The position numbers and the translations under genes are program-made. Shown in pieces: positions 18,797 through 63,122 of a DNA stretch of 64,000 nt; position 1 is the first letter of the stretch; every line of letters starts with the position of its first letter. The stretch lies in assembly GCA_903831295.1 (NCBI GenBank), contig CAIKXA010000037.1:1-64000 (forward strand). Direction: 5' to 3'. The notes under the pieces were generated by a model, which was given only the letters and a program-made list of their open reading frames with translations, searched no databases and had not been told where the DNA came from. Source of the stretch: an uncultured bacterium. GTDB lineage: Bacteria; Planctomycetota; Phycisphaerae; Phycisphaerales; SM1A02.

Positions 18797-20587
18797 ATGC
18801 AAGATCAAGCCAATCCAAAACACGGGCTCACTCAGCATCCGTTGGATAAACCGCTTGTTGTATTGGTCACAAATGAAGTGTGGGCTATTGATCTTTTAAG
18901 AACGGCGTTGAGTTCTGATGCCGCGCAACTTGAAATTATTCCACGCGATGCAAATTGCATAGAAAGAGCGATCCGTTTGGCGCCTTCCGTTGTGGCTGTG
19001 GAAATTTCTGGTGCTGGACCACAAGGTTTTGATTTGCTGCGAGCGTTTGCCAACAACGAAACCACGAAGGAAATTCCCTGCGTGGCAATGGCGGCGTTGC
19101 CCGATCCACTGATTCGGGCGGCGGCTTTTGCGGCCAGCGCTGAGGACTTTATTTCCCGGCTGAGCGAGCCCGAAGAAGTTCGATCACGGATTGGCACATT
19201 GGCGAAATTGGGCATGGCTCATTGCAGAGAGCGAATGGCCGAGGCCGAAATCGCAGCCCTTCAAAAACGTCTGAACGATCGGGCTCACTCATTGACCGAC
19301 AGCGAGCGCTTGGTGACTCACTTGCAAAAATCGCTCGTGGTGGATTCAGATACGTATCGAAAGCGCGTGGGTGGATTGCTTGAAGTTGGCAATGAATTGA
19401 ATGAGGTACAAGACATTCATATTTTGATGGAGAAAATTTTAAGCCAGGCGCGCAAATTGATTGGCGCAGACGCGGGAACAATTTTTATCCGTGAAAATAA
19501 GTTGCTGCGCTTCAAGTACGCCCAAAATGACACTCTTTCAAAGCGCCCAGGTGTGGTGGATTCTTCTCAATTCCGATTCTCCAGCCAAGTATTGCCTGTA
19601 AACGATCGATCAATCGCGGGTTGGGTTGGAGCGAGCGGTGAAAGCGTGAATATTGCCAACGCCTACGCATTGGATCCAGGATCTCAATTTCAATTTGACG
19701 CAACTTTTGATCGGCTGACTGGATATCGAACTCAAAGCGTTTTGGCTCTGCCGTTGCGCTCAAGTAACGGACGCACCGTTGGCGTGTTGCAATTGCTCAA
19801 TGCAATGGACAGCGATGATCGCCCAAGACCACGATTCACCGACTCGGACAAAGAATTGCTTTCGCATTTTGCCAGCATTGCCACCGCGGCCATCGAGCGA
19901 ACCCAATTGACCGAAAGCGTGATCACCAAAGTGTTGCTCATGACGGAGACCTGGGATCCGAGTGAAACTTGGCAACATACTGAACGCGTTTCAGGAATCG
20001 CAACCGCGTTGTTTGAGGAATGGGCGTATCGACGCGGCTTTGTGGGTCCGGCATTTGAACGTAAACGCGATCACCTACGCATCGCGGCACGATTTCATGA
20101 CATCGGAAAGATTGGCGTGGACAATCTTATTTTAAAAAAACCTTCCAAGTTGGACGCCGCGGAATTCGAAAACGTGAAACGACACGTTCTCTGCGGAGCG
20201 CGCATCTTCGTGGGTCAATCAACTGAATTTGATGAATACTCACTCGAAGTTGCGTTGAATCATCATGAGCGATGGGATGGTGGCGGCTATCCAGGCTATG
20301 TGGACATAGATGGCAATTTATTGCTGGACCCGAACACGAATCAGCCTAGATTGGGTGGAAAAAAAGGCGAGGACATTCCTTTATTTGCAAGAGTTGTATC
20401 CATTGCCGACGTGTTTGACGCACTCTCCAACAAGCGTTGCTATAAAGAGGCTTGGGCCGAACGTAAAGTTCTTGACACGATTCGCGGCGAATCCGGAAAA
20501 CATTTTGATCCAGAGTTGGTGGATATTTTCTTCTCCAAACTGTCGCTCATTCGCGATATCTATAAATTGCATCCTGATGCTTCATAG
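18797..20587 (+). CDS. Pseudo-receiver / GAF / HD-GYP protein, likely c-di-GMP phosphodiesterase
   Basis: 596 residues. Residues 20-140 resemble a receiver domain but lack its key residues: the acidic pair is replaced by TNEVW, the phospho-acceptor Asp by Glu (VVAVEISG) and the switch Lys by Arg (FISRLSEP). A coiled stretch (about 145-180) leads to a GAF domain (about 195-375) and then an HD-GYP domain with RFHDIGKIG, HHERWDGGGYPG and a GEDIPLFARVVSIADVFDAL segment, so the metal and GYP residues are present. An insert of about 22 residues follows GYPG. It should hydrolyse c-di-GMP. It stands first in the chemosensory cluster, 38 bases before cheW, suggesting co-regulation. Confidence 0.88.
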   Translation: MQDQANPKHGLTQHPLDKPLVVLVTNEVWAIDLLRTALSSDAAQLEIIPRDANCIERAIRLAPSVVAVEISGAGPQGFDLLRAFANNETTKEIPCVAMAALPDPLIRAAAFAASAEDFISRLSEPEEVRSRIGTLAKLGMAHCRERMAEAEIAALQKRLNDRAHSLTDSERLVTHLQKSLVVDSDTYRKRVGGLLEVGNELNEVQDIHILMEKILSQARKLIGADAGTIFIRENKLLRFKYAQNDTLSKRPGVVDSSQFRFSSQVLPVNDRSIAGWVGASGESVNIANAYALDPGSQFQFDATFDRLTGYRTQSVLALPLRSSNGRTVGVLQLLNAMDSDDRPRPRFTDSDKELLSHFASIATAAIERTQLTESVITKVLLMTETWDPSETWQHTERVSGIATALFEEWAYRRGFVGPAFERKRDHLRIAARFHDIGKIGVDNLILKKPSKLDAAEFENVKRHVLCGARIFVGQSTEFDEYSLEVALNHHERWDGGGYPGYVDIDGNLLLDPNTNQPRLGGKKGEDIPLFARVVSIADVFDALSNKRCYKEAWAERKVLDTIRGESGKHFDPELVDIFFSKLSLIRDIYKLHPDAS

Positions 20588-20625
20588 TGGTCAAAGAGCC
20601 CCGTTGAAGTGGCTATGATTTGCCT

Positions 20626-21123
20626 ATGAGAACGCTGATTTGGACAGTGAATGAAAAACTTTTCGCCCTTGATGTGCGGCATATTCGAGAAGTATGTCCG
20701 GTGGTTTCAGCCCAATCCTTGCCTTCAAGCCCCGCGTGGATGTTGGGTTTGTTCGACTTTCATGGAGCGTTGATCCCATTGCTTGACGCTGGAATTCTTA
20801 CTGGACAAACGGCCATTGAGCCGCAAGTTGGATCGCGAACATTATTGATCGAAGTGCCGCTGAACAGCGATAGCGCAACCGCGCGCACGGCCATATTTGG
20901 TCTTCGCGTGGAGCAGGCGATTGGCTTGCGCGATTTGGATGACAACGGCGCGTGGAACCCCTCCGCAGGCTTGCCCGGGTTTGAACATCTACGCGAGGTG
21001 ATGAACATTCCAGAAGGTCGCGTGCAAGTTTTTGATGCCGCGCGTATTGCGCAACAACATCAACTACTTTTACAAGGCGCGAGCGCGGTGGCGATACCCA
21101 CTGATAGGCGGCTTGTGTCGTGA
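20626..21123 (+). CDS. CheW-like adaptor (WspB position)
   Basis: 165 residues from ATG at 20626; a TTG six bases earlier is less likely. The fold is that of CheW: an N-terminal strand LIWTVNEKLFALDVRHIREV, then PAWMLGLFDFHGALIPLLD, which is the usual CheW core sequence. It links a receptor to the CheA kinase at the membrane. Its stop overlaps the GTG start of cheR by three bases. In Wsp systems two CheW proteins flank CheR, exactly the arrangement found here. No MCP gene is next to it, so the receptor it serves must be encoded elsewhere or be unusual. Confidence 0.85.
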   Translation: MRTLIWTVNEKLFALDVRHIREVCPVVSAQSLPSSPAWMLGLFDFHGALIPLLDAGILTGQTAIEPQVGSRTLLIEVPLNSDSATARTAIFGLRVEQAIGLRDLDDNGAWNPSAGLPGFEHLREVMNIPEGRVQVFDAARIAQQHQLLLQGASAVAIPTDRRLVS

Positions 21124-22316
21124 ATCAGTTGTCAGCTTGGCTGGCGGTCAACACCCCCCTAGAATCCGAGCCGCATAAATTTATTGAGTTGTTCGCCAAC
21201 GAGCGCATGAGATTGTTGGGTTTGAACACGCTCACGCAATATGTGGAGCGCCTGAATCTGGATCCACGCGAGGCGCAGATCTTGCATCAACATGTGGCTC
21301 CTCCAGAAACTTGGCTGTTCCGCTACATCGCTGCATTTGACGTGCTGCGTGAAGCGATTTTAAAATCGGATCATTCCAAAGTGATCCATGTGGCAAGCCT
21401 TGGTTGCGCCACTGGCTCGGAGCCATTTTCTATCGCCGCTACAGCTCTTTCCTGTGGTTTAACAAAAGATCAATTTCAAATTTTGGCTTTGGACTATAGC
21501 GATGATCACTTGGACATCACGCGCACTGGTCGTGCAAGCGCTCTGGCGCAACGAACCCCGATTCCAAAGTGGGCCAATGAATTTTTTCACCCCACCACCC
21601 AAGGGCAACTTCAACTGGATCCACGCGGATTAGCCATGATTACCACCGTGCGCGCGGATCTGGCCACCTGGCAACCAGCACGCACTTATGATTTTGTTTT
21701 TTGCCGCAACGTTGCGATTTATTTGAACTCCCCAACTAAGAAACGTCTCGGGCGCCTGCTGGGGGAAATGACAAAACCAAATGGACTTGTGTTCCTTGGA
21801 CACGCGGACTCATTAAGTCTTGAGGACACGGATCTGAAGCGAAGTGAAATTGATCATGCGTTTGTCTTTTTCAAAGCGAAAAAAATTCCGCAATCGTCAA
21901 CGCCTGTGTGGGGAACAAGTTCACAGCGTCAAAGCATCGCTGTGAAATCCACCATCACAAACTCCCCTACACGTTCGCCAGCGATTGTCATGGCGCCGCC
22001 AATTGATCTTTTCACACAAGCCCAAATTGCGGCGGATTCGGGCAACTTGGCAGCGGCGGAAAAAGCACTCCTGGCGCACTTGGCCATAAAGCCAACTGAC
22101 AGCCAAGCGCATGTGCTATTTGGCTGCATCCAAATGGCCCAGAACAAAGTGGCTGAAGCCGAGCGAAGTTTTACCAAGGTCGTGTACCTTGAGCCATTGA
22201 ACTCACTTGCATTGTTATCGCTCGCCGCTATTTCCGACTTGCGCGGCGACGCGAAGAGCGCGGAACGATTCCGCGATCGCGCCGCTAGAACTGTTGTGGA
22301 GCACCGCCTTGACTAA
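21120..22316 (+). CDS. CheR-type methyltransferase with C-terminal TPR (WspC-like)
   Basis: 398 residues, GTG start at 21120 overlapping the cheW stop. The N-terminal four-helix part is followed by the methyltransferase core: PPETWLFRYIAAF, SLGCATGSEPFSIA (the SAM-binding loop, compare GCSTGEEPYS) and FCRNVAIYL. A Pro/Thr-rich linker (about 255-290) leads to TPR-like helices (about 295-395: AQIAADSGNLAAAEKALLAH and further). It should methylate receptor glutamates using S-adenosylmethionine. The CheR-TPR architecture is that of WspC, which supports the Wsp-like reading of the whole cluster. Confidence 0.9.
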   Translation: MNQLSAWLAVNTPLESEPHKFIELFANERMRLLGLNTLTQYVERLNLDPREAQILHQHVAPPETWLFRYIAAFDVLREAILKSDHSKVIHVASLGCATGSEPFSIAATALSCGLTKDQFQILALDYSDDHLDITRTGRASALAQRTPIPKWANEFFHPTTQGQLQLDPRGLAMITTVRADLATWQPARTYDFVFCRNVAIYLNSPTKKRLGRLLGEMTKPNGLVFLGHADSLSLEDTDLKRSEIDHAFVFFKAKKIPQSSTPVWGTSSQRQSIAVKSTITNSPTRSPAIVMAPPIDLFTQAQIAADSGNLAAAEKALLAHLAIKPTDSQAHVLFGCIQMAQNKVAEAERSFTKVVYLEPLNSLALLSLAAISDLRGDAKSAERFRDRAARTVVEHRLD

Positions 22317-22890
22317 TTTACCGCCAGACAATCTCAAGGAAATTAAAATTGGATTGACCCAACTTTTGGCGCGTCCAATCAAGCCGACTAGCTTGGCTTT
22401 CAATACAAATGCGTTGGCGCAAACACGCGAGCAATCTCTGCGTGAAGAAGACACCATATTGCTGTTTCGAATTGGTGGCGAACGATTCGCGTTGCCCGCC
22501 AAAAGCGTATTGAATGTTTTTCCAATCACAAAGGTGCGCAAAGTTCCGCACAGAACCCGCCCGCCATTTCGTGGACTGTGCTGCTATGAAGGCGCAATTT
22601 TGTTAACTGGGTTGCTGCATGTTGTGCTTGACATGCCGGTGGATAAAACCGCAAATGCCAAATTGCGCCGCATGATTGTGATCGGTAGCGAAGACGCTTC
22701 TTGGGCTTTTGAAGTGGACGCAGTTGACGCCATCCGAAAAGTGGATCCATCACAATTTCGCAATGCGCCGTCGACCATTCCAAAAAACGCCACTTCCTGC
22801 ACCAATTGCATCATTCCATTGGATGATGGCGACGCCGTGCTTTTGGATCCTGGCGCCATTCAATCCATCATGGAGAGGTCAATTCAATGA
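22309..22890 (+). CDS. Second CheW-like adaptor (WspD position)
   Basis: 193 residues from a TTG at 22309 that overlaps the cheR stop; a TTG at 22294 is an alternative and the exact start is uncertain. The CheW fold begins near residue 45 (ILLFRIGGERFALPAKSVLNV) and contains FRGLCCYEGAILLTGLLHV, the counterpart of the G-x-x-N/Y core. The extra N-terminal 40 residues have no motif I recognise. Two dissimilar CheW proteins around a CheR-TPR gene match WspB and WspD. The ATG of the kinase gene overlaps its stop by four bases. Confidence 0.83.
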   Translation: MTNLPPDNLKEIKIGLTQLLARPIKPTSLAFNTNALAQTREQSLREEDTILLFRIGGERFALPAKSVLNVFPITKVRKVPHRTRPPFRGLCCYEGAILLTGLLHVVLDMPVDKTANAKLRRMIVIGSEDASWAFEVDAVDAIRKVDPSQFRNAPSTIPKNATSCTNCIIPLDDGDAVLLDPGAIQSIMERSIQ

Positions 22891-25253
22891 GTGCGTTTGG
22901 AGGATTTGATCTTTTTGAATTGTTCCGCGGTGAAATTCAGTCGCATGGCGCTTCGCTGAATGATGGGTTGCTTCGTTTGGAGCAGAACCCCGCCGATGTG
23001 CATCCCATTGAAAGCCTGATGCGAGCGGCCCATTCCATCAAGGGCGCTTCAAGAGTGATTGGTTTGGATTTGGCGGTTGACTTGGCCCACCACATGGAAG
23101 ATTGTTTGGTCAACATTCAAAGAAAAGTAGAAGTGTGTGGACCTGAACGAGTGGAGCAGTTGCTTGCTGGCACGGATATGTTGACTCAACTTGGCACGAT
23201 ACAAGAAACGGATTTGCCAGCTTGGAAAACCGCCAATGCCGTTGACATAAACGCCCTGATCACCGCGCTTAGCGCCCCGGCGCAGGCGTCAAGCGGACAA
23301 AGCAAAACGGTTCAGCCTGAATTCAAAGTGCCAGACACCACGGAATCCGAAATCACAGAGGTGAACATCGAGCCCGCAACTGAACGCTTGGTGGCGCCAA
23401 GCAATCCACCCGCCGCCCCGCTTGCACCCGCAAAGCCGCAAGCAGGTTCGTCTGAACAACCGCTTCAAACATCGGAGAAAACAAGCAATACGGCCAAGCC
23501 AGTTGCCGCAGCAGTGACCGAGGTTCGCACCGTGCGCGTGAACGCTGAAAATCTAGATCGCATGATGCGGTTGGCTGGCGAAAGCATGGTTGAGGGAAAA
23601 AGATTTCCTCAAATTCGCCGCGGCTTGCGCGAGATGAAGTCGCAATTGCGCTTTGCGCGTGATTCATTCGAGTCCGCTGTGAAGCGAAAAGACACCGTCG
23701 AAATTAGCAGTTCACTGGCGCGCTTGGTCAGCATTGAGGCAAGCCTGGCAACCCATGCTGAATTTTTAGAGAATGTATTTCGTCGCACCGAGGAAGTTGG
23801 AACCAAACTTTATCACGAGGTCATTGGCAGTCGTATGCGTCCCTTTGGCGATGTCACCGCGGGCCACCCTCGAATGATTCGAGATCTTGCCAAGAAGCTG
23901 GGAAAGAAAGTTCAATTTGATATCGAGGGATCAAATGTGGCCGTGGATCGCGATGTGCTGTCGCGATTGGAGGCGCCACTGAATCACATGTTGCGCAATG
24001 CGATTGACCATGGCGTAGAAGGTCCGCAGGACAGGCTTGCGGCTGGAAAGTCCGAGACCGCTCATTTGCGATTGCAAGCGCGCCACCACGCGGGCATGTT
24101 GGAGGTTCGCATTCGCGATGATGGCCGCGGAATCGACCCCGAACGTGTGCGCACCAAAGTGATCGAAAAACGCTTGCAATCCGCTGAAATAGCATCAGGT
24201 TTGAACAAGGTGGAACTGCTGGAGTTTTTATTCTTACCTGGTTTCTCCACCGCATCACAAGTCACCGAAGTTTCAGGCCGCGGAGTTGGGTTGGACGTGG
24301 TCAGTCAAACAGTGCGCGAGATAGGCGGCACTGTGCGTTTGGAATCGCAACCAGGTCAAGGCTCTGAATTTATTTTATCTTTACCTATCACGTTAAGCGT
24401 GATTCGCGCAGTCACCGTTCTTGTGGGCGGCGAAGGCTACGCGTTTCCACTTGCGCGTATTGAGCGCATAGTCAAAATCGATGCGGCCTCGCTTCAAAGC
24501 GTGGAAGGTCGATTGACATTTCAATTGGATGAGCGCTCCATTGGTTTGATTCGCGCCAACGAACTATTTGGTGTATCTGAATCCACGGTGGATTTAAAAG
24601 GATCGCAAATTGTGAACGTGGTGGTGCTTGGCGATATTGACAATCCGTGTGGATTGGTGGTTGACCAATTCATGGGCGAACAAGATTTGGTGGTGCGCAA
24701 ACTCGATCCACGACTTGGAAAAACTCCATTCATTAGTTCCGCCGCCATTGATGACGAAGGCAACGCGATTCTGATCATGGACGTGGAGGATTTGCTCATC
24801 AACATTCGACGCGGCCTGAGCGAGGGTGGCGTGCGCGGTTTGGATATAGCTTCTTTGCGCCGTAATTCCTCCGGTCGCAAGCGTGTTTTAGTGGTGGATG
24901 ATTCCATCACCGTGCGTGAAGTTGAGCGGCAAATGCTGGCGCGCTTGGGCTATGACGTGGAGACCGCGGTGGATGGAGTTGACGGCTTCACTCAATTGAA
25001 AGCCGGGCAATTTGATTTGCTCGTGACGGACGTTGATATGCCACGCATGAACGGAATTGAATTTGTGAAGGCTCTTCGCCGTGAGCCGCGCTTTGCGTCA
25101 TTGCCAGTGGCCATTGTCAGCTATAAGGACCGCGCCGAGGATCGCGCCGCCGGAATGGAAGCGGGCGCCAACGCTTATCTCACCAAGGGTTCATTCCAAG
25201 ATCAATCCTTCATTCAAACAATCACTGATTTGATTGGCGAGGCGTCATCGTGA
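22887..25253 (+). CDS. Hybrid CheA kinase with C-terminal receiver (WspE-like)
   Basis: 788 residues. HPt domain with the phosphorylated His in AAHSIKGASRVIGL (His49); Pro/Ala-rich linker (about 130-205); dimerisation region; HATPase with HMLRNAIDHGVEG (N box), RDDGRGIDPERV (G1) and SGRGVGLDVV (G2); CheW-like domain (about 500-630); receiver (about 665-785) with VLVVDDSITVREVE, phospho-acceptor in TDVDMPRMNG and the Lys in YLTKGS. It autophosphorylates in response to its receptor and passes phosphate to CheB and the output regulator. CheA fused to a receiver is the WspE architecture; the receiver may act as a phosphate sink. Confidence 0.93.
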   Translation: MSAFGGFDLFELFRGEIQSHGASLNDGLLRLEQNPADVHPIESLMRAAHSIKGASRVIGLDLAVDLAHHMEDCLVNIQRKVEVCGPERVEQLLAGTDMLTQLGTIQETDLPAWKTANAVDINALITALSAPAQASSGQSKTVQPEFKVPDTTESEITEVNIEPATERLVAPSNPPAAPLAPAKPQAGSSEQPLQTSEKTSNTAKPVAAAVTEVRTVRVNAENLDRMMRLAGESMVEGKRFPQIRRGLREMKSQLRFARDSFESAVKRKDTVEISSSLARLVSIEASLATHAEFLENVFRRTEEVGTKLYHEVIGSRMRPFGDVTAGHPRMIRDLAKKLGKKVQFDIEGSNVAVDRDVLSRLEAPLNHMLRNAIDHGVEGPQDRLAAGKSETAHLRLQARHHAGMLEVRIRDDGRGIDPERVRTKVIEKRLQSAEIASGLNKVELLEFLFLPGFSTASQVTEVSGRGVGLDVVSQTVREIGGTVRLESQPGQGSEFILSLPITLSVIRAVTVLVGGEGYAFPLARIERIVKIDAASLQSVEGRLTFQLDERSIGLIRANELFGVSESTVDLKGSQIVNVVVLGDIDNPCGLVVDQFMGEQDLVVRKLDPRLGKTPFISSAAIDDEGNAILIMDVEDLLINIRRGLSEGGVRGLDIASLRRNSSGRKRVLVVDDSITVREVERQMLARLGYDVETAVDGVDGFTQLKAGQFDLLVTDVDMPRMNGIEFVKALRREPRFASLPVAIVSYKDRAEDRAAGMEAGANAYLTKGSFQDQSFIQTITDLIGEASS

Positions 25254-26287
25254 AAATTGCGGTTGTGAATGATTTAAAAATTGCATTGCACGCATTGACA
25301 CATATTGTGAACGGCATTCCTAACGTGACCCTGGCTTGGACGGCGCTAGACGGCGTTGAAGCCGTGGCTAAGTGCGCCGCTGATCGACCCGATTTAATTT
25401 TGATGGATTTGATCATGCCCAACATGGATGGCGTGGCGGCCACGCGTGAAATCATGCGCAAAACTCCTTGCGCAATTCTGGTAGTCACGGCAACGATTGA
25501 GGGAAATGCCAGCCGCGTGTTTGAGGCGCTTGGCGCTGGCGCTTTGGATGCGGTGGAAACCCCCCGCTTTGAGCAGTCGCTCGATGGATCAGGTGGCGAT
25601 CGTTTAAGAGCCAAAATTGAACAGATTCGCCGCAATCAGGGAATCACCCACAAACATTCACGACCCGCGTTTTCTGCAATTACGAATTCCAGCACCGCTG
25701 CATCAGCCACATCCGTGGTTCTGCTTGGAGCAAGTACCGGTGGCCCTCAAGCCCTGGCCACTGTGCTGCGCTCTTTCAAACCGCCATTCGATTTTGCAGT
25801 GGTGATAGTGCAACACTTGGATACCGCGTTTATTGGTGGATTTAGAAAATGGCTTGCTCACGAAACTGGATTGAACGTGCTACCCGCCACTGCTGGCGAT
25901 CGCATCACGGCTGGAAACGTATTTGTGGCATCATCTGATCGACATTTGCAATTGACTTCTGGTGGCGTGTTTGTTGAATCAGATCAACCATTGGATGCGT
26001 TGCACAGGCCAAGTGTTGACTCACTCATGCTTTCCGCGGCAACCACAAAATTATTTGGGGTGGCCGCATTGCTCACCGGCATGGGACGAGATGGAGCCGC
26101 GGGATTGCTCGCGCTTAAAAAATCTGGATGGGCCACGATCGCGCAAGACGCCGCAACCAGCGTGGTCTGGGGAATGCCCGGCGCCGCGGTTCAATGCGTC
26201 GCCGCAGAGCAAGTTTTGGCAATAGATCAAATCGGTCACGCTATTCAAGTCGCTCTTACAAGGAAATTAAAGCCCCGCCATGTCTAA
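25250..26287 (+). CDS. CheB-type methylesterase (WspF-like)
   Basis: 345 residues, GTG start overlapping the kinase stop by four bases. An N-terminal receiver (1-120, phospho-acceptor in LILMDLIMPNMDG) is joined to the methylesterase domain. The catalytic triad is visible as Ser in GASTGG, His in VQHLD and Asp in GMGRDGAAG. It removes methyl groups from receptor glutamates and so resets the sensory array. Its phosphorylation by the hybrid kinase would make adaptation dependent on signalling. In Wsp systems the CheB is the gene before the response regulator, as here. Confidence 0.92.
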   Translation: MKIAVVNDLKIALHALTHIVNGIPNVTLAWTALDGVEAVAKCAADRPDLILMDLIMPNMDGVAATREIMRKTPCAILVVTATIEGNASRVFEALGAGALDAVETPRFEQSLDGSGGDRLRAKIEQIRRNQGITHKHSRPAFSAITNSSTAASATSVVLLGASTGGPQALATVLRSFKPPFDFAVVIVQHLDTAFIGGFRKWLAHETGLNVLPATAGDRITAGNVFVASSDRHLQLTSGGVFVESDQPLDALHRPSVDSLMLSAATTKLFGVAALLTGMGRDGAAGLLALKKSGWATIAQDAATSVVWGMPGAAVQCVAAEQVLAIDQIGHAIQVALTRKLKPRHV

Positions 26288-27479
26288 TTCAACACTCCCG
26301 CATTCACTTACCAATTTCAAAACCGTCGTGCTTCTGGTTGATGACCAAGCCATTATCGCTGCCGCCGTGCATAAAATGCTGCAGTCGCAAACTGAATGGG
26401 AATTTCACTATTGCAGCGATGCGACCAAAGCGCTTGAAACCGCGCTTCAACTTCAACCCACCGTGATCTTGCAAGATTTGGTCATGCCCAACATTGATGG
26501 GCTGACACTTGTCACCGAATATCGCAAGCACGCGCAGCTTCGGGAGACTCCGCTTGTGGTTCTTTCATCGCGCGAGGAAGCGCAGACCAAAGCCAAGGCA
26601 TTTGAATTGGGCGCCAACGATTATTTGGTGAAGTTGCCTGATCCAGTTGAATTGATCGCGCGCATCAAGCACCACTCCGATGGTTTCAAGGCGGCGCTTG
26701 AGCGCAACGCGGCCTACGCGGCTTTGGCCGCCAGCGAAAAACATTTGCAAGAAGAAGCCAAGCGCGCGGCGGAATATGTGCGATCGCTTTTGCCATTGCC
26801 ATTGACGGAAGGCGCGGCCACCACCAAATGGAAATTTGTTCCCAGCGAAAGTTTGGGAGGCGACGCGTTTGGATACCACTGGCTTGATGAATCACGCTTG
26901 GCTATTTACTTGCTGGACGTGTGCGGACACGGAGTTGGTCCAGCGCTGCTTGGAGTGAGCGCCATGAACACCATTCGCGGTGGCGCGATTCCGGGTTGTG
27001 ACATGCGCGATCCTGCCGCCGTGCTTGAGGGCTTGAATGAACTTTATCCAATGGCGCAACACAACAGCATGTTCTTCACGCTGTGGTATGGCATTTTGGA
27101 TGTCGATGCCAAGACAATCAAATGGTGTGGCGGAGGCCATCCGCCCGCGGTTTTAGTGGGGCCAGATGGATCGCTGACTGAGCTGGCATCGCAAGGCTTG
27201 ATGATTGGCGCCGCCACGGGAATTCCATATGACTCGAGTGAAGTCGCGTTGCAACCCAATTCAAAATTGTTTGTATATAGCGACGGAATCTTTGAGATCA
27301 CCAAGCCCGATGCAAGCATGACATCTCTTGATGAGTACATCGCGAAGATTGGACAATTCCAAAGCAAGCCTGATGCGTTGGAGCAAATGGTCATCTGGGG
27401 ACAAGACGCCCAAGGCGGTCCGCAATTTGTGGACGACGTGAGCTTGCTCGAGGTGACTTTTAATCCGTCCGCGGGGTAA
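26280..27479 (+). CDS. WspR-type receiver fused to PP2C/SpoIIE phosphatase
   Basis: 399 residues. The receiver (about 15-135) has VVLLVDDQAIIAAAV, PTVILQDLVMPNIDGLTLV (acceptor Asp66) and GANDYLVKLPDPVELIARI, phrases that from memory closely match the WspR receiver. A coiled helix (about 140-170) replaces the WspR linker. The C-terminal half (about 185-395) is not GGDEF but a PP2C-type serine phosphatase: GGDAFGYHWLDE, LLDVCGHGVGPALL, YSDGIFEI and DDVSLLEV, with the metal-binding acidic residues. It should dephosphorylate a STAS-type protein in a partner-switching pathway. Its ATG overlaps the cheB stop. Confidence 0.9.
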   Translation: MSNSTLPHSLTNFKTVVLLVDDQAIIAAAVHKMLQSQTEWEFHYCSDATKALETALQLQPTVILQDLVMPNIDGLTLVTEYRKHAQLRETPLVVLSSREEAQTKAKAFELGANDYLVKLPDPVELIARIKHHSDGFKAALERNAAYAALAASEKHLQEEAKRAAEYVRSLLPLPLTEGAATTKWKFVPSESLGGDAFGYHWLDESRLAIYLLDVCGHGVGPALLGVSAMNTIRGGAIPGCDMRDPAAVLEGLNELYPMAQHNSMFFTLWYGILDVDAKTIKWCGGGHPPAVLVGPDGSLTELASQGLMIGAATGIPYDSSEVALQPNSKLFVYSDGIFEITKPDASMTSLDEYIAKIGQFQSKPDALEQMVIWGQDAQGGPQFVDDVSLLEVTFNPSAG

Positions 27480-27489: not shown

Positions 27490-28650
27490 GTGTGTCGTGA
27501 CATCATTGCAATTGCGCGACGTTGTCAAAAGATGCGCACGACCAAGTGTCTGGCTCGAAATCTGTTCGTGATATTGATTGGCGGAGTGACCATTTTTCTC
27601 TCAAGCAAATCGCTTGCTCAGGCTGTATCACTGCAACGATTTCATTTTCAAGAAGTACATATGGGTGCGGTGACGCAGATCACTTTGTACACCGACTCGG
27701 AAGCACATGGCGCCCGTGCCGCGCGCGCGGCGTTTGACGAAATCGCCGCATGGGATCGTGCATTGAGTGATTATTTAAATGACTCTGAGATTTCCACTCT
27801 TGCCCAGATCGCAGGAACATCCACCGTGGTGCAAGCACGATTGGCCAAAGCCATCAAATTATCGTTTGAATTCATGCATTTATCCGACGGCGCATTTGAT
27901 CCTGCGCTTGGACGGCTGACCAAATTATGGCGAGTGGCATTTGCAAAATCAACGATGCCCGACACCGCGCAACTTTGCGACGCGTTGAAACATTCGGGTG
28001 GTGCTCATGTGTTGTGGAACCAAGAAAGCCAAACCGTGGCCTTTGATATGGATGGAATCCAATTTGATTTTGGCGCGATTGGCCAAGGACTTGCGGCGGA
28101 CGCGGCCATGAATGTACTGCGAGCCCATCACATTTCATCAGCCTTGATTGATATAAGCGGCGATGTTCTGGCCAGTGATCCACCGCCCCAATCAAATGAC
28201 TGGGTGATCCAAGTTGATCCAGAATTTATTGGCGAGCAATCCCATACTGTGACATTGTCAAACCAAGCGTTGTGCGTGAGCGGTGACCGCGGCCAGCTTG
28301 GGAGCATTGATGGAAAAACATTTTCCCACATAATCAATCCTAAGAATGGTCGTCCAATGGATACACCAAGGCAATCCATGGTGATTGCCAACGACGCAAC
28401 CACCGCCGATGCGATTGCCACAATCGCATGCGTGATGGACGTTGAACAGTTGAAGATTTTTGCGAAAAAGTTTCCCTTAGTCAAAATTGCAATTGAACGC
28501 TTGCCAAACGATGGCGGCATTCAAACGATTGAGCCGCAAGCAAAATCAACCGCGCCGCCAAATGAACCAACACATTCGCAAGTTTCAACCAAGCCCACCG
28601 ACACGATCCATGAGGGACATGAAGGAATCTTCACAAACCCTGTGAATTAG
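27490..28650 (+). CDS. apbE: FAD:protein FMN transferase, ApbE family
   Basis: 386 residues from GTG at 27490; an internal ATG at 27535 would give a tighter signal peptide but has no ribosome-binding site. A hydrophobic export segment (NLFVILIGGVTIFLSS) ends at a probable cleavage site after SLAQA. The body shows ApbE features: GAVTQITLYT, ISTLAQIAG, DGAFDPALGRL, FDFGAIGQGLAADAA, SALIDISGDVLAS and the metal-site region SHIINPKNGRPM. The enzyme attaches FMN to Thr or Ser of exported proteins such as Rnf or Nqr subunits. It is 10 bases after the phosphatase gene; a functional tie with the signalling genes is not evident. The C-terminal 45 residues are Pro/Thr-rich. Confidence 0.9.
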   Translation: MCRDIIAIARRCQKMRTTKCLARNLFVILIGGVTIFLSSKSLAQAVSLQRFHFQEVHMGAVTQITLYTDSEAHGARAARAAFDEIAAWDRALSDYLNDSEISTLAQIAGTSTVVQARLAKAIKLSFEFMHLSDGAFDPALGRLTKLWRVAFAKSTMPDTAQLCDALKHSGGAHVLWNQESQTVAFDMDGIQFDFGAIGQGLAADAAMNVLRAHHISSALIDISGDVLASDPPPQSNDWVIQVDPEFIGEQSHTVTLSNQALCVSGDRGQLGSIDGKTFSHIINPKNGRPMDTPRQSMVIANDATTADAIATIACVMDVEQLKIFAKKFPLVKIAIERLPNDGGIQTIEPQAKSTAPPNEPTHSQVSTKPTDTIHEGHEGIFTNPVN

Positions 28651-62774: not shown

Positions 62775-63122
62775 ATGCAGACATACATCACCGAGCGAGA
62801 TGGTTTGATTTTGGTTGTCGCGGCCGACGGCGGATTGAACCGCGGCACGGCTCAGCAATTGATAGAGGAAATTTCCAAGCATGTTGAAAGTGGCGCCACG
62901 CAAGTCGTGGTTGATTGCGCCAAGCTTGAAATTTTGTCCAGCATGGGTCTTGGAGCCCTGCTGCAAATCCACAACAAGCTTAAGAAGCAGGGCGCGCAAG
63001 TTCGCTTGTGCGGACTTCGCAGTTTGATGGTGCAAGCCATATTGATTTCACGGCTGGACAAGATCTTTGAGGTCTATCCAGACGTCAACGCGGCTAAAAT
63101 TTCGTTCCGCCCCCTTTCCTAG
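62775..63122 (+). CDS. STAS-domain anti-sigma factor antagonist
   Basis: 115 residues comprising one STAS domain: ITERDGLILVVAADGGLN, VVVDCAKLEILSSMGLGALL and the loop VRLCGLRSLMVQAILISRL. The Ser in LSSMGLGALL is the site phosphorylated in such proteins. It would bind an anti-sigma kinase or be a target of a PP2C phosphatase. It is 3 bases behind kdsD, so co-transcribed with it. A phosphatase of the needed class lies at 26280. No anti-sigma kinase or sigma gene is adjacent. Confidence 0.85.
   Translation: MQTYITERDGLILVVAADGGLNRGTAQQLIEEISKHVESGATQVVVDCAKLEILSSMGLGALLQIHNKLKKQGAQVRLCGLRSLMVQAILISRLDKIFEVYPDVNAAKISFRPLS

Follow-up and report, generated by a model that had tools for sequence, protein, structure and literature searches.

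The Wsp system of Pseudomonas is the model for the route that leads from surface contact through cyclic di-GMP (c-di-GMP) to biofilm formation. It includes WspR, which consists of a receiver (REC) and a GGDEF output domain and whose receiver and stalk dimerize and thereby govern this output domain (as summarized in PMC2270323). The survey of Kessler et al. (2021), in its available part, records 794 Wsp clusters from beta- and gammaproteobacteria only, 588 with WspR and 206 with WspH (PMC8552884). Here, we describe a cluster of this type in a stretch of 64,000 nucleotides, referred to as the window, from an uncultured planctomycete of the SM1A02 lineage (assembly GCA_903831295.1, contig CAIKXA010000037.1, positions 1 to 64,000; the assembly has 2.48 Mb in 120 contigs and is 84% complete). 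The last gene of the cluster encodes a WspR-type receiver carried on a predicted serine phosphatase of the PP2C family (REC-PP2C), and this Wsp-type operon probably signals through a partner switch.

The REC-PP2C protein is encoded by an open reading frame (ORF) of 399 codons with an ATG start at 26280-27479 on the + strand, at the end of a WspB-WspF-like cluster. Pfam recognizes Response_reg (1.2e-20, residues 17-130) and SpoIIE (2.7e-34, residues 204-394), both above cut-off; a GGDEF domain is absent, and because SpoIIE/PP2C stands in its place the protein is not filed as WspR. The receiver with its N-terminal extension occupies 26280-26678, and the stalk helix and the phosphatase domain lie at approximately 26679-26790 and 26791-27476, respectively. 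In an alignment of the protein with 80 relatives, D21, D22, D66 and K118, which together with S96 we take to be the phosphorylation sites of the receiver, are identical in all 81 sequences, and S96 is Ser in 80 and Thr in one. D195, D213 and D335 are likewise invariant, while D385 and D386 are Asp in 80 sequences and a gap in one; these five presumably bind the metal ions of the phosphatase. The PP2C domain thus looks catalytically intact. It falls in a 60-row clade (support 100/99), and ten scanned relatives within this clade carry GAF (six), FHA (one) or no other Pfam domain (three).

The kinship of the receiver is with WspR. A phmmer search of the whole protein against the PDB placed first 3bre (150 bits, 7.8e-43, residues 15-158) and 3i5a (150 bits), entitled 'P.aeruginosa PA3702' and 'full-length WpsR from Pseudomonas syringae', respectively, PA3702 being WspR according to the accessible part of the literature. 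RssB came next with 107 bits that span both domains. For the receiver alone the scores were 139 and 137 bits for WspR, 67 for PleD and 42 for RssB (3eq2), whereas the PP2C part scored 64 bits against RssB. In a tree of 110 receivers the window protein lies in a clade of 73 rows (support 100/98) composed of 54 REC-PP2C, eight REC-HD-GYP and seven Wsp-linked REC-GGDEF proteins, three others and a single non-Wsp REC-GGDEF protein on a long branch (L150). Ten generic REC-PP2C proteins, ten CheA receivers and four CheB receivers fall outside. This tree contains several long branches, and its inner order is weak because it has only 122 columns. That the receiver is of the generic REC-PP2C type is ruled out by the position of those ten proteins and by the scores of 139 bits for WspR versus 42 for RssB. 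The predicted model (mean predicted local distance difference test score 94.2) has a single helix at residues 122-170 by DSSP, and its residues 14-166 superpose on WspR 18-170 with a root mean square deviation of 1.5 over 153 residues at 50% identity. By sequence and predicted fold, receiver and stalk are both of the WspR type. Structural matches of the model also include SpoIIE, SiaA, the RsbU domain and RsbX.

Upstream, the gene content is that of a Wsp array. Seven + strand genes fill 18797-27479 in the order GAF-HD-GYP, CheW, CheR, CheW, CheA-REC, CheB and REC-PP2C, and from the first CheW to CheB this matches the Wsp core from WspB to WspF (CheW, CheR-TPR, CheW, CheA-REC, CheB), as compared with seven proteobacterial loci. 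The WspB position is held by a CheW protein (20620-21123; Pfam CheW 1.4e-13), that of WspC by a CheR methyltransferase with a C-terminal TPR-like region (21120-22316; CheR 1.6e-29, TPR matches below the Pfam cut-off) and that of WspD by a second CheW (22309-22890; CheW 1.8e-14 on the ORF), for which a TTG start at 22309 was chosen by inspection, the listed ORF starting at 22207. In the WspE position is a CheA with a C-terminal receiver (22887-25253; Pfam Hpt, H-kinase_dim, HATPase_c, CheW and Response_reg), which is the sole CheA found in the assembly, nine further matches falling within the query's receiver. A CheB methylesterase with a receiver (25250-26287; CheB_methylest 3.8e-50, Response_reg) follows in the WspF position, and its ORF overlaps that of REC-PP2C by 8 bases. 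The spacing is 32 bp between GAF-HD-GYP and the first CheW, and each later gene through REC-PP2C overlaps its neighbor by 4-8 bases; this tight packing suggests that the seven genes are transcribed together. In a tree of CheA plus CheB, 54 rows that include the GGDEF clusters lie on one side of three outgroups (support 99/94). That tree omits 26 of the 83 rows of an earlier one, mostly near-copies or close relatives, and also the outgroup L234 and the loci L161, L187 and L202, which had grouped with the outgroups. From these sequence comparisons, the cluster upstream of REC-PP2C is a Wsp-type chemosensory operon. The preliminary description of this DNA therefore stands in its main observations: every motif it quoted for a receiver joined to a SpoIIE-like phosphatase is there, the receiver belongs with WspR rather than with generic REC-PP2C regulators, the metal residues are in place (neither of the two outcomes that it named as refuting was observed), and the upstream genes are Wsp-like in content, order and CheA/CheB phylogeny.

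The same arrangement recurs in other genomes. A scan of named genomes with REC-PP2C as the query yielded 589 candidates, and the best 80 loci, which carry NCBI phylum labels taken from record titles (labels that can be wrong for metagenome-assembled genomes, MAGs), were assigned to Planctomycetota (45), Pseudomonadota (7), Thermodesulfobacteriota (6), Ignavibacteriota, Lentisphaerota and Acidobacteriota (3 each), Myxococcota, Chlamydiota, Elusimicrobiota and Verrucomicrobiota (2 each) or no phylum (5). CheB lies directly 5' of REC-PP2C in 46 of these 80 loci, which cover all ten named phyla; in 17 others CheA/CheB genes are found elsewhere in the locus, and ten contigs are too short to tell. 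MCP (methyl-accepting chemotaxis protein), CheW, CheR, CheA and CheB are all present in 33 loci, and in none of the 80 was a WspR-type REC-GGDEF gene found alongside REC-PP2C. The closest named relative found is 'Planctomycetota bacterium K_Offshore_40m_m2_104' (L154), with 65% identity for REC-PP2C, and Sulfidibacter corallicola M133 (L186) has CheA and MCP genes near its REC-PP2C gene. Because these loci come from a REC-PP2C query and are the best 80 of 589, the share of PP2C among them is inflated; the two receiver-only searches are the ones neutral as to output. The first, with at most ten candidates scored per genome, covered 392 Planctomycetota genomes and returned 27 receivers with scores of at least 75 bits (the best score below this group was 71), fused to PP2C (19), HD-GYP (7) or a histidine kinase (1) and in no case to GGDEF. 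CheA and/or CheB genes adjoin 18 of the 19 PP2C types, L038 being the exception. In the second search, which covered 5000 records, seven of the 20 strong records (H41-H60) among the matches listed were examined, and all seven have GGDEF. The phosphatase-ended Wsp cluster is thus real, conserved and widespread across many labeled phyla.

Genes of partner-switching systems accompany REC-PP2C in part of these loci. Home-made hidden Markov models were run over 98 loci other than the window, comprising the 80 named ones and 18 from phylum searches, with several genomes present twice from two collections; a conserved-neighbor search covered 80 of 97 loci, the REC-PP2C ORF of the other 17 having been lost in gene picking. 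Twelve RsbW-like kinase matches were obtained. The kinase gene lies on the same strand directly 3' of REC-PP2C in L162, L197, L204, L214, L215 and L038 (with a STAS gene between in the last two), is a convergent neighbor in L155 and L041, heads the Wsp cluster in L211 and L213 and is located elsewhere in L216 and L157. STAS genes lie 3' of REC-PP2C in L162, L215, L038 and L210 and convergently in L155; in Desulfoferrobacter suflitae (L155) Wsp genes, REC-PP2C, RsbW-like kinase and STAS occur together. Pfam finds HATPase_c_2 in each of the ten kinases that adjoin REC-PP2C or head the cluster, and STAS in each of the five STAS proteins. In total, 11 of the 98 loci have an RsbW-like kinase and/or a STAS gene next to REC-PP2C or at the start of the operon. 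These loci are labeled as five phyla, one genome being unassigned, and because of this company partner switching is the likely output of REC-PP2C. At the planctomycete locus L038 (6744-9427, - strand), which shows no Wsp genes, the WspR-type REC-PP2C gene precedes the STAS gene, the kinase gene and then a gene that we take to be QueC-like.

In the scheme that we consider probable, WspA-like chemoreceptors, for which four MCPs encoded elsewhere in the genome are candidates, would control the CheA-REC kinase together with the two CheW proteins, and CheR and CheB would adapt the system by methylation. Phosphorylated CheA-REC would hand its phosphate to D66 of the receiver, upon which two molecules would pair through the helical stalk, as in WspR and SpoIIE, set the output domain and switch PP2C on. 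In SpoIIE, dimerization is described as turning two helices at the base of PP2C to give the active form (according to the accessible part of PMC5468089), and the receiver-stalk pair that sets GGDEF in WspR would here set the switch helices of PP2C. The phosphatase would then strip the serine phosphate from a STAS protein of the anti-anti-sigma type, which would change partner with an RsbW-like kinase and so free a sigma factor or another target. Gene content and order, the kinship of receiver and stalk, the conserved catalytic residues, the recurrence of the cluster and the RsbW-like/STAS neighbors of some copies are observed; from them we infer, for this organism, the phosphotransfer, the direction in which PP2C is switched, its substrate and the final output.

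Several observations weigh against this scheme, beginning with the structural search, in which the top whole-length match of the model is RssB, a protein described, in the part of the literature at hand, as an adaptor that does not need phosphatase activity. By this precedent the PP2C domain would be a non-catalytic adaptor, with the receiver governing the binding of a client; given catalytic Asp residues that are invariant in 81 sequences save for one gap and a receiver whose sequence is unlike that of RssB (42 bits), this is very improbable. The loci are mostly MAG contigs, but the Wsp clade also takes in CheA/CheB from named strains, namely D. suflitae DRH4 (L155), Gemmata sp. IIL30 (L221) and Zavarzinella formosa DSM 19928 (L216), which makes the pattern more than a binning artefact. 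No chemoreceptor gene is present within the cluster of the window. The last 300 residues of the four MCPs encoded elsewhere are 42.5-46.8% identical to the MCP in the WspA position of Azoarcus, and the relatives L131, L133, L137 and L175 keep an MCP gene inside the cluster. Furthermore, seven of the best 80 loci, with at least 5 kb on both flanks, have no CheA/CheB, and in three of the 17 with CheA/CheB elsewhere (L161, L187 and L202) these proteins group with the outgroups and not with Wsp, so that some REC-PP2C proteins may serve other kinases. The receiver might then be phosphorylated mainly by another kinase and its Wsp adjacency be incidental, as L038 and L215, linked to STAS and RsbW-like genes only, could also suggest. 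For the window protein this appears improbable in view of the position of CheB directly upstream in more than half of the best 80 loci under ten phylum labels, of a receiver type that matches the one found in R-systems and of the one CheA found in the genome.

The remaining objections concern the target of the phosphatase. Of the eight kinases adjoining REC-PP2C, all but those of L214, L155 and L041 served as seeds for the models, as did four STAS proteins, so that the neighbor screen leans towards adjacency. In this screen 87 of the 98 loci showed no RsbW-like or STAS neighbor, some contigs ending soon after the gene. Next to REC-PP2C in the window there is neither an RsbW-like nor a STAS gene, which makes the substrate here a guess among the nine STAS proteins matched in the genome. 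Two STAS/HATPase_c_2 pairs are located on other contigs (C24 and C67), and the window itself encodes a stand-alone STAS protein of 115 residues, 35 kb away (62775-63122, + strand; Pfam STAS 4.6e-18), which is one of the nine and a possible, unproven substrate. Partner switching as proposed in the preliminary description is hence backed by the 11 related loci and not by the surroundings of the window copy. An active Wsp-linked serine phosphatase could instead act on targets beyond sigma partner switching, such as a STAS protein controlling an enzyme or transporter or a substrate of a Ser/Thr kinase, with possible crosstalk to the HD-GYP protein of the same cluster. In line with this, no sigma factor gene adjoins REC-PP2C in the window either, the STAS/HATPase_c_2 pair on contig C24 of the same genome has an MlaE permease as its neighbor, and in this family the system occurs together with HD-GYP proteins that have WspR-type receivers. 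Where signaling partners do adjoin REC-PP2C, however, they are an RsbW-like kinase and/or STAS, and we regard such other targets as rather unlikely, the partner switch remaining the preferred reading.

The c-di-GMP pathway, whose synthesis branch the preliminary description set against serine dephosphorylation, is nevertheless represented at this locus. The operon opens with a GAF-HD-GYP protein (18797-20587, + strand; Pfam GAF and HD/HD_5), a predicted c-di-GMP phosphodiesterase with the motifs HDIGK and HHERWDGGGYP and a degenerate N-terminal WspR-like receiver, in which the alignment shows Glu at the position of the acceptor Asp and loss of the Asp pair. The same-genus copy of this protein in L128 retains Asp at the acceptor position. 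On contig C20 of this genome (L068, 7658-9436, - strand), GAF-HD-GYP is joined to a second WspR-type receiver, in which the phospho-acceptor residues are retained, and the single CheA found may therefore drive both the phosphatase and a predicted c-di-GMP hydrolase. Two such regulators also occur within one cluster in L224 (REC-HD-GYP and REC-PP2C), in L181 (REC-cyclase and REC-PP2C) and in L227 (REC-PP2C and a receiver with an unrecognized C-terminal part). The L181 gene (7338-8798, + strand), which adjoins REC-PP2C in a Wsp cluster, encodes a fusion of a WspR-type receiver with an adenylate/guanylate cyclase domain. In a comparison of 20 sequences, aligned on a motif that could not be located in L130 or in the three generic REC-PP2C proteins, the PP2C, GGDEF and histidine kinase proteins resemble one another in the receiver and the next 20 or so residues, and the cyclase and HD-GYP proteins do so less.

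That GGDEF had been replaced by PP2C, as first worded, implies a direction that the trees do not uphold. In the CheA plus CheB tree the seven GGDEF clusters group together (100/99) beside two PP2C clusters of Methylococcaceae-like MAGs (99/96), and three trees draw the GGDEF clusters nested inside the PP2C ones. This nesting is itself not upheld because the approximately unbiased (AU) test does not reject a tree that holds all non-GGDEF Wsp clusters together on one side (p 0.695) and finds it a slightly better fit. The AU test does reject a single clade for the PP2C-fused WspR-type receivers (p 0.0013) and for the PP2C domains of those proteins (p 0.0067), and several exchanges of output are therefore needed. 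A tentative account, to which we give somewhat less than even credence, is that the PP2C form is the broad and possibly original Wsp, that the c-di-GMP form arose by a single later swap in Proteobacteria and that receiver and stalk are a portable cassette for PP2C, GGDEF, HD-GYP, adenylate/guanylate cyclase and histidine kinase outputs.

Directly 3' of REC-PP2C, the window encodes an ApbE-like flavin mononucleotide transferase (27490-28650, + strand; Pfam ApbE 1.1e-56). An ApbE-like gene is also found downstream of REC-PP2C in L128/L154, L132/L174, L158, L175 and L194.

Phosphorelays that end in REC-PP2C proteins have been described before. The RsbK-RsbM-RsbY system of Bacillus cereus has, to our knowledge, no CheA/CheW array. 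It resembles the present system in joining a histidine kinase and a methyltransferase to a REC-PP2C protein that feeds RsbV, RsbW and σB, and differs in that its kinase is a transmembrane hybrid sensor kinase (from the consulted part of PMC4574943). In the HptB-HsbR-HsbA pathway of P. aeruginosa a phosphorelay likewise reaches a REC-PP2C protein that dephosphorylates an anti-sigma factor antagonist, but HsbR has an additional kinase/anti-sigma domain and the accessible text mentions no chemosensory array (PMC6482189). In stage-1 clusters of the F7 class, genes for a serine phosphatase and for anti-sigma factor antagonists stand beside chemosensory ones; these clusters are, as far as that text goes, of a class with a separate CheY and not of the Wsp/ACF (alternative cellular function) type (PMC7184735). 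RssB of P. aeruginosa (3eq2, 3f7a) has the REC-PP2C architecture and is like our protein in its PP2C part and in the whole-length structural match, and unlike it in its receiver. A census of CheR-TPR proteins from 2012 lists PP2C among response-regulator outputs in the portion at hand (PMC3447774). The novelty of the present cluster is limited by this census, the F7 stage-1 clusters and the REC-PP2C phosphorelays, and it was an overstatement to say that the two signaling logics are usually kept apart, since RsbK/RsbM/RsbY, HptB/HsbR, the census and the F7 clusters already combine them. A Wsp cluster ending in REC-PP2C did not appear in titles and abstract openings of the open-access literature, subscription journals lying mostly outside it, or in the parts available of PMC12088040 (where 'Wsp' does not occur), PMC5812489, PMC7184735 and PMC2577667.

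Set beside the published range of Wsp, restricted to beta- and gammaproteobacteria and to WspR or WspH in the accessible text (PMC8552884), the present loci contradict both limits. GGDEF-type WspR clusters on alphaproteobacterial plasmids (L147, L148 and L149, from Mesorhizobium, Novosphingobium and another alphaproteobacterium) likewise lie outside this range. WspH of Burkholderia, a REC-histidine kinase, is an earlier case of a Wsp receiver whose output has been exchanged; it differs in the output itself, in the location of its gene on the 5' side and in being reported, in that source as consulted, from Burkholderia only (PMC8552884). One planctomycete (L053) has a REC-HisKA-HATPase-REC gene after CheB. 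A freshwater study reports WspE-WspRF in all its groups, according to its consulted part (PMC6461901), and the present results would advise against taking a planctomycete 'WspR' for a diguanylate cyclase. Two of our loci, L207, whose cluster ends in REC-PP2C, and L177, come from MAGs (ZH-13MAY13-plancto70 and ZE-3NOV15-plancto6) that are named like those of that study. The phosphatase form in ten labeled phyla would show that the sensory array is separable from its output, and would allow a link between a Wsp array and partner switching to be tested, e.g., in D. suflitae. Compared with Wsp/WspR (3bre, 3i5a), the cluster shares the order and domains from WspB to WspF and a receiver and stalk of one family, and departs from it in having PP2C instead of GGDEF, a GAF-HD-GYP gene in first place and, in this genus, no WspA gene in the cluster; it is a further, new variant of Wsp, with a partner switch as its probable signaling outcome.

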